In this document: positions 18,907 through 55,201 of the stretch, piece after piece
How positions within the stretch are numbered: position 1 is the stretch's first letter
Layout of the letters: every line of letters begins with the position of its first letter
Assembly (NCBI GenBank): GCA_013791905.1
Contig: VMSX01000011.1
Span: 434,001-498,000, forward strand
DNA from: Rhodocyclaceae bacterium
GTDB taxonomy: Bacteria; Pseudomonadota; Gammaproteobacteria; Burkholderiales; Rhodocyclaceae
DNA: 64,000 nucleotides
Reading direction: 5' to 3'
Made by a program: the position numbers and the translations under genes
The notes under the pieces: model-generated
What the model saw: the letters and a program-made list of their open reading frames with translations, nothing else
What the model was told of the DNA's origin: nothing
Database searches by the model: none

Positions 18907-19212
18907 TTAGAAGCATTGCAGCAAATTCGCATCGCAGTAAATCTTCTTCAAAAAGGCCAACCCGATCCACAGCCAGAACAGCAGAAAAAACGCCACGAAG
19001 GGCAGATGTTTGTCGATGATCTGCGGCGGCGCGATCATGCGCACGAGTTTCAGCACCGGCCGGGTGACAATGACGAAAAGTTGATAGATGGTGTTGCTGT
19101 GGCGGCGCTGTCCCGCCAACAGCGCCAGCAAGCCTTGGCCGAGCAGGAACAGCAGGGAGATTTCGGCCAGTGCACGCAGCAAGCCGAGGATGAGGAGTTC
19201 CGGGTGACTCAT
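18907..19212 (-). CDS. Small integral membrane protein, possibly YggT-like
   Basis: 101 residues with two long hydrophobic helices (about 5-32 and 68-90) joined by a basic loop containing VTRPVLKLVRMIAP, which resembles the repeat unit of YggT-family membrane proteins. Function unknown in this family. The ATG at 19212 is used. It is divergent from the TPR gene at 19251 with a 38-bp shared upstream region. The gene ends close to the tRNA-Phe promoter. Confidence 0.65.
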   Translation of the reverse strand: MSHPELLILGLLRALAEISLLFLLGQGLLALLAGQRRHSNTIYQLFVIVTRPVLKLVRMIAPPQIIDKHLPFVAFFLLFWLWIGLAFLKKIYCDANLLQCF

Positions 19213-19250
19213 GTTATGTTGGCATTTTCCTGCATGGAATTGCGGCTACG

Positions 19251-19841
19251 GTGAACTATGACCACTGGCGGCATTATGCCCGCGGCTGGGTGTTTCATTT
19301 TCTGGGCCAGGTGGATGTGGCCTACGCGGCGTATGCCGAGGCGTTTCGCATCGACCCGTCGGACATCCAGTCAGCGCGACATCTGGCCGCCATTGCGGTG
19401 GAAAGACAGCGCTGGGATGAGGCCGAAGCGTGGTACCAAACAAGCCTCGACTTACTGTCGACGGATGCCGATACCTGGTTCAACCTCGGCTTCGTCCGCG
19501 AGCGCGCGGCAAAATCGGCGGAGGCAATTGCGGCCTTCAGCGAGGCGGTACGCCTCAAGCCCGCGCAGGATCGCGCCTGGTACGGCATGGGGCTGGCCCA
19601 CGCCCGGCTCGGCCAGCATGCAGCAGCCGCCAGCGCATTGCAGCAGGCCGTGAAGTTGCAGCCAATGAATGGCGAGGCCTTTTACCAGCTGGGCATGGCG
19701 CTGCATCACGCCGAGCGGCCGGATGAGCTGAAACCGGTTGTCATCAAGCTGGCCGGCTTCGAGCCGAAGCGCGCGCGCAAGCTGGTGCAGGATGCCGGCC
19801 GCGCCGACCTGCTGCCGCTCATTCCGGACCTGCCGTTTTAA
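19251..19841 (+). CDS. Tetratricopeptide repeat protein
   Basis: 196 residues made almost wholly of about four TPR units (for example VDVAYAAYAEAFRIDPSDIQ, DADTWFNLGFVRERAAKSAE, DRAWYGMGLAHARLGQHAAA, GEAFYQLGMALHHAERPDEL). No signal peptide; likely a cytoplasmic protein-protein interaction scaffold with unknown partner. GTG start. The stop codon TAA is formed by the first bases of a dispersed repeat copy (19840-19864). Confidence 0.82.
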   Translation: MNYDHWRHYARGWVFHFLGQVDVAYAAYAEAFRIDPSDIQSARHLAAIAVERQRWDEAEAWYQTSLDLLSTDADTWFNLGFVRERAAKSAEAIAAFSEAVRLKPAQDRAWYGMGLAHARLGQHAAAASALQQAVKLQPMNGEAFYQLGMALHHAERPDELKPVVIKLAGFEPKRARKLVQDAGRADLLPLIPDLPF

Positions 19842-50843: not shown

Positions 50844-51833
50844 TCAGCCCATCTTTTCCAAACCGGCGGGTGGCCAGTTTTCAAGCTTCATACCTAGGGT
50901 CAGGCCACGCGAAGCCAAGACTTCTTTGATTTCGTTGAGTGACTTGCGGCCAAGGTTTGGTGTTTTCAAAAGTTCAGTCTCGGTGCGCTGAATCAGATCA
51001 CCAATATAGTAGATGTTCTCGGCCTTCAGGCAGTTGGCAGAACGAACCGTCAACTCGAGATCGTCAACCGGACGCAACAGGATCGGGTCGACAGTGGATT
51101 GTTTGGGAGCCTCGATAGAAATCGGGGTGCCTTCAAGATCCGAAAATACTGACAACTGGTCCATCAGAATACTGGCGGCGTAGCGAATTGATTCTTCAGG
51201 ATCAATGGCACCATTGGTCTCAATATCGATAATCAGTTTATCAAGGTCAGTGCGCTGTTCAACACGCGCTGCTTCAACTTGATAACTAACGCGACGCACT
51301 GGGCTGAACGAAGCGTCAACCAAAATGCGGCCGATACTTTTACTGTCTTTTGTTGCGGTGCGCACGTTAGCTGGCACATAGCCGCGACCTGCCTCGACCT
51401 TGATCTGCATATCCAACTTGCCACCGGGGGCCAGATGGGCGATCACATGATCCGGGTTAATGATTTCGATGTCATGGTTAGCTTGTATATCAGCAGCCGT
51501 GACCATTGTTTCCTCCCCATCCCCCTTCTTTGACAGAGTCAGAATGGTTTCGCCGCGATTGTGCAGGCGCATTACTACGCCCTTCAAATTCAGCATGATG
51601 TCAACGACATCTTCGCGCACACCTTCCAGTGTCGAATATTCATGCAACACACCATCAATGGTCATCTCGGTTACTGCGGCACCGGGCATCGACGACAGAA
51701 GAATGCGACGCAGCGCATTACCCAAAGTATGTCCGTAACCGCGCTCAAAGGGCTCCATTACAACTCGGGCATGCAGTGGGGAGAGCGCTTGAACGTCAAT
51801 GATGCGGGGTTTTAGAAGCGCGTGACTTTGCAT
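50844..51833 (-). CDS. rpoA: RNA polymerase alpha subunit
   Basis: 329 residues. N-terminal dimerisation/assembly domain (about 1-235; [20 protein letters not shown]) and C-terminal domain (about 250-329; [39 protein letters not shown]) that contacts UP elements and activators. Complete. Confidence 0.98.
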
Positions 51834-51897: not shown

Positions 51898-52527
51898 TTA
51901 ACGCGAATACAACTCGACCACAAGACCTTCCTTGATGGTAGGTGGTAGTTCGTCACGAGCCGGATAAGCCTTGAAAGTACCTTTGCCAGCCTTAACATCA
52001 ACTTCTATCCACTCGGGGAAACCACGTGATTCAGCTGCTTCCAACGCAGCCTTGGTACGCAGATGCACCCGTGTTGCCTCCGTCACTTGGATAATGTCTC
52101 CAGGAGTGACGTTATATGACGGAATGTTGACGCGCTTGCCATTGACCAGAACGCCATTGTGGCGAACGATCTGACGGGACTCGGCTCGGGAAGCACCAAA
52201 ACCCATCCGATAAGCAACAGAATCAAGGCGACCTTCTAGCAATTGCAACAAATTCTCGCCAGTTTGTCCCTTGCGGCGACTCGCCTCAGCAAAGATTTTA
52301 CGGAATTGACGCTCGAGGACCCCGTAGAGGCGGCGAATTTTCTGCTTTTCGCGCAATTGTTGACCATAGCCGGAAAGGCGTTGGCCTGATTTCTGGCCAT
52401 GCTGGCCAGGCGCATAGGAACGACGCTCGATAGAGCACTTATCAGTGAAACATTTTTCGCCCTTGAGAAATAGCTTCTCTCCCTCACGGCGACACTGACG
52501 GCATTTTGGATCTAGATTGCGGGCCAC
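51898..52527 (-). CDS. rpsD: Ribosomal protein S4
   Basis: 209 residues, GTG start with AAGGAG upstream. N-terminal zinc-finger-like cysteines ([18 protein letters not shown]), S4 RNA-binding domain about 98-160. Primary 16S binder; in many proteobacteria it represses its own alpha operon. Confidence 0.98.
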
Positions 52528-52550: not shown

Positions 52551-52952
52551 TTAGATGCGGCGGCGCTTGGGCGGCCGGCAACCATTGTGTGGAATCGGGG
52601 TGATGTCGGTAATGCTGCTGATCTTGATACCCAAGGCATTCAGCGCACGAACAGCGGACTCGCGCCCAGGGCCTGGGCCCTTGATACGCACCTCGAGGTT
52701 CTTGATACCGCACTCTAGAGCTGCCTTACCCGCGGCTTCAGCAGCAACCTGGGCAGCGAAAGGTGTGGATTTACGCGAGCCCTTAAATCCGGCGCCGCCT
52801 GACGTTGCCCAAGAAAGCGCATTCCCTTGGCGGTCAGTGATAGTAATAATGGTGTTATTGAATGATGCATGCACGTGTGCGATGCCTTCAGCAACGTTCT
52901 TCTTGACCTTCTTGCGAACTTTTGTGCTCGCCTTGGTAGTCGTTTTTGCCAT
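52551..52952 (-). CDS. rpsK: Ribosomal protein S11
   Basis: 133 residues; [20 protein letters not shown] and the [15 protein letters not shown] end are typical. Platform of the small subunit. 18 bp after rpsM. Confidence 0.98.
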
Positions 52953-52970
52953 GTTTATATACCCTACTGG

Positions 52971-53336
52971 TTATTTCTTGCTGCCGGCAACTGACTTGCG
53001 CGGCCCCTTGCGGGTACGCGCGTTGGTGCGCGTGCGTTGACCCCGTACCGGCAAACCCCGACGGTGCCTGACACCACGGTAGCAGCTAAGGTCCATGAGG
53101 CGCTTGATGTTCATGGAAACCTCGCGTCGCAAATCACCTTCGACAGCGACTTTGCCTACCTGCTCACGTAGACGATCCATATCTGTCTCGGTGAGATCCT
53201 TTATTTTGACCGAACGCAGAACCCCTGCAGCGTCGCAGATTTTCTGCGCGCGCGAGCGGCCAATGCCATAGATTGCGGTTAAAGCAATCTCGGCATGCTG
53301 GTGATTCGGAATATTTACGCCTGCAATACGGGCCAT
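52971..53336 (-). CDS. rpsM: Ribosomal protein S13
   Basis: 121 residues; [19 protein letters not shown], and basic tail [18 protein letters not shown]. Head of the small subunit, contacts P-site tRNA. First gene of the alpha operon, with its own promoter at 53453-53481 and a leader of about 110 nt. Confidence 0.98.
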
Positions 53337-53452: not shown

Positions 53453-53481
53453 ATTCTAAAAGAAAATCAAAACGTTTTCAA
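53453..53481 (-). promoter_or_regulatory. Alpha-operon promoter
   Basis: Minus strand TTGAAA (53476-53481), 17-bp spacer, TAGAAT (53453-53458). The -35 box overlaps the rpmJ stop codon. The leader down to rpsM (53337-53445) contains CCGGTT/AGCCGG inverted pieces and could hold the S4 control structure. Confidence 0.75.
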
Positions 53482-53591
53482 CCCTGACGCTGCTTGTGCC
53501 GTGGTTCCGTACAAATCACACGAACTACGCCATGGCGACGTACAATTTTGCATTTGCGACAAATGCGCTTGACCGAAGCTTGAACTCTCAT
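53478..53591 (-). CDS. rpmJ: Ribosomal protein L36
   Basis: 37 residues: [20 protein letters not shown], then [17 protein letters not shown]. The four zinc ligands (C, C, C, H) of the classic zinc-binding form are present. 29 bp after the infA remnant stop and before the alpha-operon promoter. Confidence 0.96.
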
Positions 53592-53620: not shown

Positions 53621-53839
53621 TTACTTCGCCCTAAATACGGTACGCGCCCTGTTTAGATCATAAGGTGTCAATTGAATGGTGGCTTTGTCACCTGGCATAA
53701 TCTGGGTGTAATGCATGTGCATTTTTTCAGATATGAAAACTAGGACAACGTGGCCGCCTTCCAACTTCACTCGAAATGTAGCGTTTGGTAGGTTATCAAG
53801 AACCTCTCTCTACATCTCAATGAAATCTTCTGTCGACAT
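53621..53839 (-). pseudogene. infA: Decayed infA (translation initiation factor IF-1) with in-frame TAG
   Basis: Between secY and rpmJ, where infA normally lies. The frame gives MSTEDFIEM, a TAG stop at codon 10 (53810-53812; homologues have CAG, Gln), then [20 protein letters not shown] and a recognisable IF-1 tail ending [16 protein letters not shown]. Besides the stop, conserved positions have changed (GHISGKMR to [12 protein letters not shown] to YTQI), including arginines that contact 16S rRNA. No ATG or good restart follows the stop before most of the fold. IF-1 is essential, so a second infA is expected elsewhere. Confidence 0.85.
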
Positions 53840-53863: not shown

Positions 53864-55201
53864 CTAACGGGTTGGCATCCCCGCTCCCTTGAAGTTAGCC
53901 TTCTTCAGCAAACTTTCATACTGATGGGACATAACGTAAGCCTGAACCTGCGCCATGAAGTCCATCGTAACAACAACAATAATCAGCAACGAAGTACCAC
54001 CAAAATAAAATGGCACATTCCATTTCAAAATCAGGAACTCGGGTAGCAGACAAACCAGAGTGATATATCCTGCGCCAACCAACGTCAAGCGCATCAATAT
54101 TTTGTCAATGTAGCGGGCGGTTTGATCTCCCGGGCGATAGCCAGGAACAAAAGCACCGCTCTTTTTCAGATTGTCTGCCGTATCTTTCGGATTGAAAACC
54201 AATGCCGTATAGAAGAAACAGAAGAATATAATTGCCGCCGCGTAAAGCAATACATAAACCGGTTGCCCTGGAGAGAGCGTGGCGGCAATATCCTTCAACC
54301 ATAACGCGCCCTCACCTGCACCAAACCAGCCAGCCGCTGACGCTGGGAAAAGGATAATCGACGAAGCGAAGATAGGTGGGATTACGCCTGCCATATTGAG
54401 CTTCAACGGCAAGTGCGAACTCTGGCCACCATATATCTTGTTGCCTACCTGGCGCTTGGCGTAATTGACAAGAATTTTGCGTTGCCCGCGTTCAACAAAT
54501 ACAACAAAGCCGGTAACGACCACCACCAGAACACAAATTACGATTGATGTCAGCGGGTGCATGGCACCAGTTCTAACCAATTCGAACAGCCCGCCGAGTG
54601 CGCTCGGCAAACCGGCAACAATGCCCGCGAAAATAATAATGGAAATGCCGTTGCCTAGTCCACGCTCGGTAATCTGCTCGCCCAACCACATCAAGAACAT
54701 CGTGCCGGTTACCAGTGTCATGACTGTAACCAGACGAAACATCAGGCCCGGATCAAGCACGAGGCCCGGCTGCATTTCCAATGCTATCGCCATGCCAATG
54801 GACTGAAAGAGCGCCAATATTACTGTTCCGTAGCGTGTGTATTGGGTAATCTTCCGACGACCGGCCTCACCCTCTTTCTTCAATTGCTCAAGTGCAGGAA
54901 CCGCGTGCGTCATCAATTGCATGATGATTGATGCCGAGATGTAGGGCATGATGCCCAAAGCGAAGATCGTGAAACGTGATAGCGCACCACCGGAAAACAG
55001 GTTGAAGACACCAAGTATGCCACCCTGCTGCGAATTAAACAGTTCAGCAAGCTGTACTGGGTCAATTCCCGGGACCGGAATGTGCGCACCAATACGAAAT
55101 ACTATCAGCGCCCCGAGTAGAAAGCCAAGCCGACGCCACAGATCGCCGAACTTGCCCGCTCTACCAAGTGCGCCTGTAGCGTTTGTGGTGGCGTTAGCCA
55201 C
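53864..55201 (-). CDS. secY: Preprotein translocase subunit SecY
   Basis: 445 residues, ten membrane helices, GTG start. Forms the protein-conducting channel with SecEG. Conserved [32 protein letters not shown] and the cytosolic loop [20 protein letters not shown]. Part of the spc operon after rplO. Confidence 0.98.

Follow-up and report, generated by a model that had tools for sequence, protein, structure and literature searches.

A probable infA pseudogene in the ribosomal cluster of a Rhodocyclaceae bacterium, with IF-1 probably supplied by an old paralogue elsewhere in the genome

Background

IF-1, the product of infA, is an essential protein. In the proteobacterial ancestor, infA is inferred to have lain in the spc operon (PMC8046335). 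Gammaproteobacteria have no infA near the spc/alpha cluster (PMC3087516), and the infA gene of E. coli is monocistronic, located elsewhere and cold-induced (PMC6511841). Plastid infA has been lost many times in parallel, the gene having moved to the nucleus (Millen et al. 2001, cited in PMC8429499). A gene annotated as infA2 is listed as a second IF-1 gene in Cupriavidus metallidurans (PMC2864759), and infA2 is also annotated in Bordetella pertussis, where a table places it between secY and rpmJ (PMC7742992). In each case these statements are taken from individual passages of the sources.

The locus described here shares with the Gammaproteobacteria the absence of a working infA from the spc/alpha cluster. 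However, the gammaproteobacterial absence, as those passages present it, is old and class-wide, whereas that in Rhodocyclaceae appears to be recent, partly ongoing and repeated among close relatives, and it leaves a divergent paralogue as the single copy. The likeness to plastids, as far as the passage cited describes them, is that the same gene is lost repeatedly and its function replaced from elsewhere, although here the setting is a bacterial chromosome and the replacement would be an old paralogue rather than a transferred copy. C. metallidurans and B. pertussis belong to the same class as the window's genome and likewise have more than one annotated infA; the passages concerned list these genes with no discussion of loss, and their infA2 numbering differs.

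Results

An interrupted infA between intact secY and rpmJ

The window is a 64,000-nucleotide stretch of a draft genome (G000) of 3.64 Mb in 30 contigs, with an estimated completeness of 99.99%. Its ribosomal cluster contains the following features:

50844..51833, minus strand: rpoA, intact
51898..52527, minus strand: rpsD, intact
52551..52952, minus strand: rpsK, intact
52971..53336, minus strand: rpsM, intact, the next gene of the cluster after rpmJ
53478..53591, minus strand: rpmJ (L36), intact downstream neighbour of infA
53621..53839, minus strand: infA (IF-1, type 1) pseudogene, full length, no indel
53810..53812, minus strand: in-frame TAG at codon 10 of infA, a glutamine codon in 11 of 11 intact copies from the genus
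53864..55201, minus strand: secY, intact upstream neighbour of infA, its own stop also TAG

The infA frame is 219 bases long (53839-53621) and runs from ATG to TAA with no frameshift. Its translation begins MSTEDFIEM*REVLDN... and has the usual end, ...VFRAK*, with a single in-frame stop. The initial annotation had reported a TAG at codon 10 in place of a glutamine codon, altered RNA-binding motifs and intact flanking genes, and inspection of the minus-strand frame confirmed the stop, the changed residues and the intact neighbours. The remnant has VFISEKMH and YTQI where the 11 intact genus copies have GHISGKMR, GYISGKMR or SHISGKMR, and YIRI. SecY (445 aa) and RpmJ (37 aa) are 98% and 97% identical, respectively, to those of the sister species G008, and a GGAG-type ribosome binding site is retained, by eye, directly 5' of rpmJ. 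With its one internal TAG the remnant scores 55.1 bits against PF01176 (81.9 bits for an intact second copy in the same genome); with the TAG read through it scores 76.4 bits and still passes the NCBIfam infA cut-off of 61.15. Among the best 80 of 580 SecY relatives, the nearest named ones are a Rhodocyclaceae MAG (L036, 92%) and a Sulfuritalea MAG (89%); the infA of L036 and that of G005, which is in the same genus as the window's genome, are one and the same, and the group is therefore referred to here as Rhodocyclaceae.

Extent of decay and loss of constraint

The remnant differs from all 11 intact genus copies at 16 of 72 codons, the stop included, which bears out the earlier proposal of decay as opposed to a single sequencing error. 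Fourteen of the 16 changed states, namely the stop and 13 residues, are absent from all of the 72 operon IF-1 sequences compared; these represent 71 distinct loci, L036 being genus member G005, and exclude as too gapped 4 of the 65 named copies (L042, L045, L065 and L080). By comparison, functional operon copies from the 61 named loci carry 14 private residues in total. Gly38, Arg41 and Arg46, which we take to be part of the RNA-binding surface of IF-1, are invariant in the 72 sequences, and the residues that the remnant has at these positions are found in none of them. Eleven of the 16 changes fall on positions that are at least 99% conserved (35 of the 72 positions are so). The location of the changes was considered as a further mark of decay and dropped, since the rare private residues of the 61 functional sequences also sit mostly on conserved positions (11 of 14); the argument for decay is therefore the number of changes, not where they lie.

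A codon model, in which relative branch lengths were fixed from the flanking genes (0.354 neutral substitutions per site on the G000 branch) and the TAG codon was masked, a conservative choice, gave a dN/dS for infA of 0.308 on the G000 branch against a background of 0.0152 (LRT 56.98, p 4.4e-14). This comparison among relatives, which had been proposed as a check, supports decay. On the branch to the sister species G008 the value was 0.060, a rise that is not significant (p 0.17). None of the 14 flanking genes was significantly accelerated on the G000 branch, and those with p<0.05 (rplQ, rpoA and rplO) were all lower. Over the whole branch, the dN/dS of infA is nevertheless significantly below 1 (LRT 22.44, p 2.2e-6). 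We attribute this to an early period under constraint, although the same value could come from a product that is weakly constrained. When infA was modelled as first constrained and then neutral, the best fit placed 30% of the branch in the neutral phase, and values of 0.2 to 0.45 lay within 1.92 lnL of it on the grid used. In simulations run neutrally until 16 codons had changed, stops averaged 0.62 and 34% of runs had exactly one, so that a remnant with 16 changed codons and a single stop is unremarkable under neutrality. The frame is thus disrupted by TAG and purifying selection is reduced relative to orthologues, two of the marks by which pseudogenes are recognized; that no indel has accumulated counts against a pseudogene. 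On balance we consider it highly probable (about 0.93) that the operon infA is a genuine and fairly recent pseudogene and that IF-1 now comes from an old type 2 paralogue elsewhere in the genome.

A second, intact infA

The initial annotation had advised looking through the genome for another intact infA, and one was found on contig C1:

G000:C1:291631-291822: second infA (type 2), intact, behind a cold-shock (csp) gene; PF01176 and NCBIfam matches

Its product, MAKEELIEMNGVV...RRRH, is 85 aa long without a stop, scores 102.3 bits against TIGR00008 (the NCBIfam infA equivalog, cut-off 61.15) and aligns with the solved IF-1 structure 1ah9 over residues 2-70. The remnant and this gene are the two PF01176 matches above cut-off in G000; a search at E up to 10 returned one more match, which is insignificant (E 1.4). 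The first 70 residues of the second copy are the same in G000 and G008, although the codons for them differ at 16 nucleotides, and its omega of 0.024 across 12 genus members indicates strong purifying selection. No significant shift in its omega was detected on branches without the operon copy (G000, p 0.12; G000+G010+G015, p 0.37).

In a tree of 123 IF-1 proteins, 50 type 2 sequences split from 72 type 1 sequences at 100% support, with E. coli IF-1 grouping with type 1; because type 1 rows had been picked by location and type 2 rows by start pattern, the split tests the labels, and the sample was not blind. Two second copies from Limnohabitans lie outside this tree. The second copy of G000 belongs to an old paralogue clade separate from the operon type. 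A type 2 alignment matched 113 of 121 genomes of the family, and in our reading of the list 12 of these have just one match, with a type 2 score. A SecY search covered 11 of the 12 (all except G098) and located the gene in four, all four without an operon infA. That the type 2 gene would suffice rests on the genomes in which nothing else was found.

The cold-shock gene and its terminator

A hairpin followed by a T-run lies between csp and the second infA in G000. Within the genus, the type 2 copy is present in 15 of 19 genomes, and csp is visible in front of it in 14 (the locus of G018 is cut by a contig end); all 14 have the hairpin. At the family level, 30 type 2 loci were fetched and 26 were read by start pattern (G000, G002 and G017 are also in the genus set). 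A csp gene was within 400 bases of infA in 21 of the 26, and the hairpin was present in 21 of 21, with 19-38 bases from the T-run to the infA start in 19 loci and 96 and 113 bases in the two others. Reading of comamonad-like loci revealed no csp ahead of their type 2 infA. The possibility that the csp terminator is a special regulator of infA was rejected: seven csp genes with no infA behind them (in G004, G006, G007, G009 and G069) carry a similar hairpin by eye, and the hairpin is therefore the csp gene's own terminator. Two of these loci, L209 (G007) and L210 (G006), have csp with the same kind of terminator and no infA behind it. These may represent the reverse loss, that of the csp-linked infA copy.

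Number of losses within the genus

An intact operon infA is present in 11 of the 19 genus genomes. SecY was located in 15. Behind it lie the intact copies of those 11 genomes and the pseudogene of G000, whereas infA is gone from G009, G010 and G015, in which a stretch of about 60 bases that includes the ribosome binding site of rpmJ is left. Genome searches found no infA of either type in G007 (83% complete) and G009 (85%), probably because these assemblies are incomplete. G004 (100% complete) and G006 (87%) yielded the operon copy alone, from which it follows that either copy may be lost.

A nucleotide tree of 14 concatenated genes has the topology ((G000,G008),(G010,(G015,G009))); G000+G008, the G010 clade and the two combined each have 100% support. 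Since the sister species G008 is intact and the tree pairs it with G000, the best reading is that the pseudogene in G000 and the deletion in the G010 clade are probably two separate losses in neighbouring lineages. It is improbable that the gene was inactivated just once, before G000 and the G010 clade diverged, and that recombination later restored an intact copy to G008. Such a history would accord with the nearly equal third-position distances of G000 to G008 and to G010 in secY, rpmJ and rpsK, and with rplO and rpmJ-rpsM-rpsK, which do not separate the three lineages and lean slightly towards G000 with the G010 clade. However, secY, which adjoins infA, by itself rejects both alternative groupings (AU p 0.006, 0.007), and the infA-rpmJ spacer is similar by eye in G000 and G008. 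The infA-only tree also pairs these two, albeit weakly (71%; species tree not rejected, AU p 0.315). The upstream genes reject the alternatives (AU p 0.001, 0.0004), as do all genes together; the rpsD-rpoA-rplQ block favours G000+G008 and does not reject the alternatives (AU p 0.10, 0.08).

Loss of the operon copy beyond the genus

Among the named loci, defined as the best 80 of 580 SecY relatives, an HMM found infA behind secY in 65 and none before rpmJ in 14; one locus (L094) is cut off. The 14 loci without operon infA are:

Named genera: Delftia, Acidovorax, two Limnohabitans, Pseudacidovorax, Xenophilus, Sutterella and Chromobacterium aquaticum
MAGs: Hydrogenophaga, Polaromonas, L061, L081, L095 and L105

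Whole genomes were tested for 11 of the 14 (all except L095, L101 and L104), and 11 of 11 carry another infA, which reads as type 2 in every case, the two Limnohabitans among them. L066 and L092, comamonad genomes in which the operon gene is retained, have two infA genes each. Because the operon copy is missing in 14 of these best 80 loci, some with relics, and another infA is present in all 11 genomes tested, its loss is recurrent.

Several of the gaps have features of their own. Short 3' relics of infA are apparent by eye in L059, L070 and L087. The 266-base secY-rpmJ gap of C. aquaticum (L104 4312-4577) has, by eye, infA-like ends, GCTAAGGAAGACACCATCCAGATGC ... GTGTTCCGTGCGAAATAA, with no HMM score; it is probably a heavily decayed infA relic and another separate loss. 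In Sutterella wadsworthensis (L101) the gap is 234 bases long and contains no infA; by eye there is an apparent hairpin (AAAGGGCGGTCC...GGCCGCCCTTTT).

SecY was also sought in 25 genomes of the family and order, mostly picked for a single weak IF-1 match or none. It was present in 10, and nine loci were read. No operon infA was found behind secY in G117, G084, G085, G038, G178, G189, G124 and G173 (G124, G173, G178 and G189 belong to families other than the window's), and G069 retains one. Two loci from other genera of the window's family contain relics: a 193-base gap in G117 (L199), in which the relic has HMM support (E 2e-6), and a 245-base gap in G084 (L200), a single-contig genome, in which it is recognized by eye alone. 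G225, G226 and G063, from the genera of G084, G085 and G117, have two infA matches each, suggesting that the losses occurred within genera. Two type 2 matches were seen within 2 kb of each other in G053 (C41:17521-17775 and 19209-19472), and two on separate contigs, C308 and C125, in G057. Neither IF-1 nor SecY was matched in G166 (98% complete), G045 (92%) and G047 (92%), assemblies that probably miss the ribosomal cluster.

Discussion

Could the interrupted gene still be of use to the cell? An amber-suppressor tRNA or programmed read-through of the TAG, with the protein still made and used, would be consistent with a frame that is otherwise open, with the remnant's passing both the Pfam and NCBIfam cut-offs and with a dN/dS below 1. 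However, the protein so made would have lost three residues that are invariant in 72 operon IF-1 sequences, with replacements absent from them all, and secY, just upstream, likewise ends in TAG. A whole-genome pattern scan, which assumes A37 and an exact T-loop and is not exhaustive, gave eight matches with a CTA anticodon; ARAGORN calls five tRNAs at these places, none of them CTA. Since a second intact infA is present, suppression is also unnecessary. Amber suppression, which the initial annotation had suggested looking for, is thus unsupported, and read-through of either kind is very unlikely indeed.

The same open frame and the same dN/dS below 1 could be invoked for a shortened IF-1 whose translation begins further on, such as at the GTG of 53770 (49 aa), and which has a new role or maintains translational coupling to rpmJ, as 49 residues are open after the stop. 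Such a product would lack the first 23 residues and would contain 12 of the 16 changed positions, and the whole segment is absent in three relatives; we regard it as quite improbable. An error of sequencing or assembly in an intact gene might be suspected in a draft of 30 contigs. Yet 15 other residues are changed across the gene, without indels, and the third-position divergence from G008 (34 of 72) falls inside the span of 26 to 37 seen across 72-codon windows of secY. Such an error is the least probable of the explanations weighed here.

Decay of the operon copy therefore remains the preferred reading, and the suggestion that a second infA has taken over was upheld: that copy is constrained, and another infA occurs in all 11 tested genomes without the operon gene. 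We infer from these sequences that the second copy has taken over the IF-1 role. Where two interchangeable IF-1 genes coexist, either one would be dispensable. On the branch that separates G000 from its sister species, the operon copy would have been inactivated at a point about 30% back from the G000 tip and would have drifted since, while secY and rpmJ on either side would remain under selection. G010, G015 and G009 would stand one stage further, with infA deleted and about 60 bases kept. IF-1 in G000 would now be supplied by the type 2 paralogue directly downstream of csp. Cold-shock (csp) proteins are antiterminators. It is conceivable, though rather unlikely, that control of IF-1 in betaproteobacteria shifts repeatedly from the ribosomal cluster to the cold-shock locus, with supply, after the death of the operon copy, depending on read-through of the csp terminator and uncoupled from ribosome synthesis.

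An event of this kind is known: it is the decay of a duplicate gene, ordinary in kind and unusual in place. In the literature searched, which covered few subscription journals, we found no report of a part-decayed operon infA or of its recurrent loss in betaproteobacteria. Essential genes of the ribosomal cluster are usually taken as fixed, and the window shows one in mid-decay, with relatives at other stages (intact, relic and deletion) that together form a natural series. This series could be used to ask at what point an essential gene can be dispensed with, whether one IF-1 paralogue can stand in for the other and how a ribosomal operon is expressed after the death of an internal gene. In practical terms, the infA of the cluster is an unsafe single-copy marker in betaproteobacteria.
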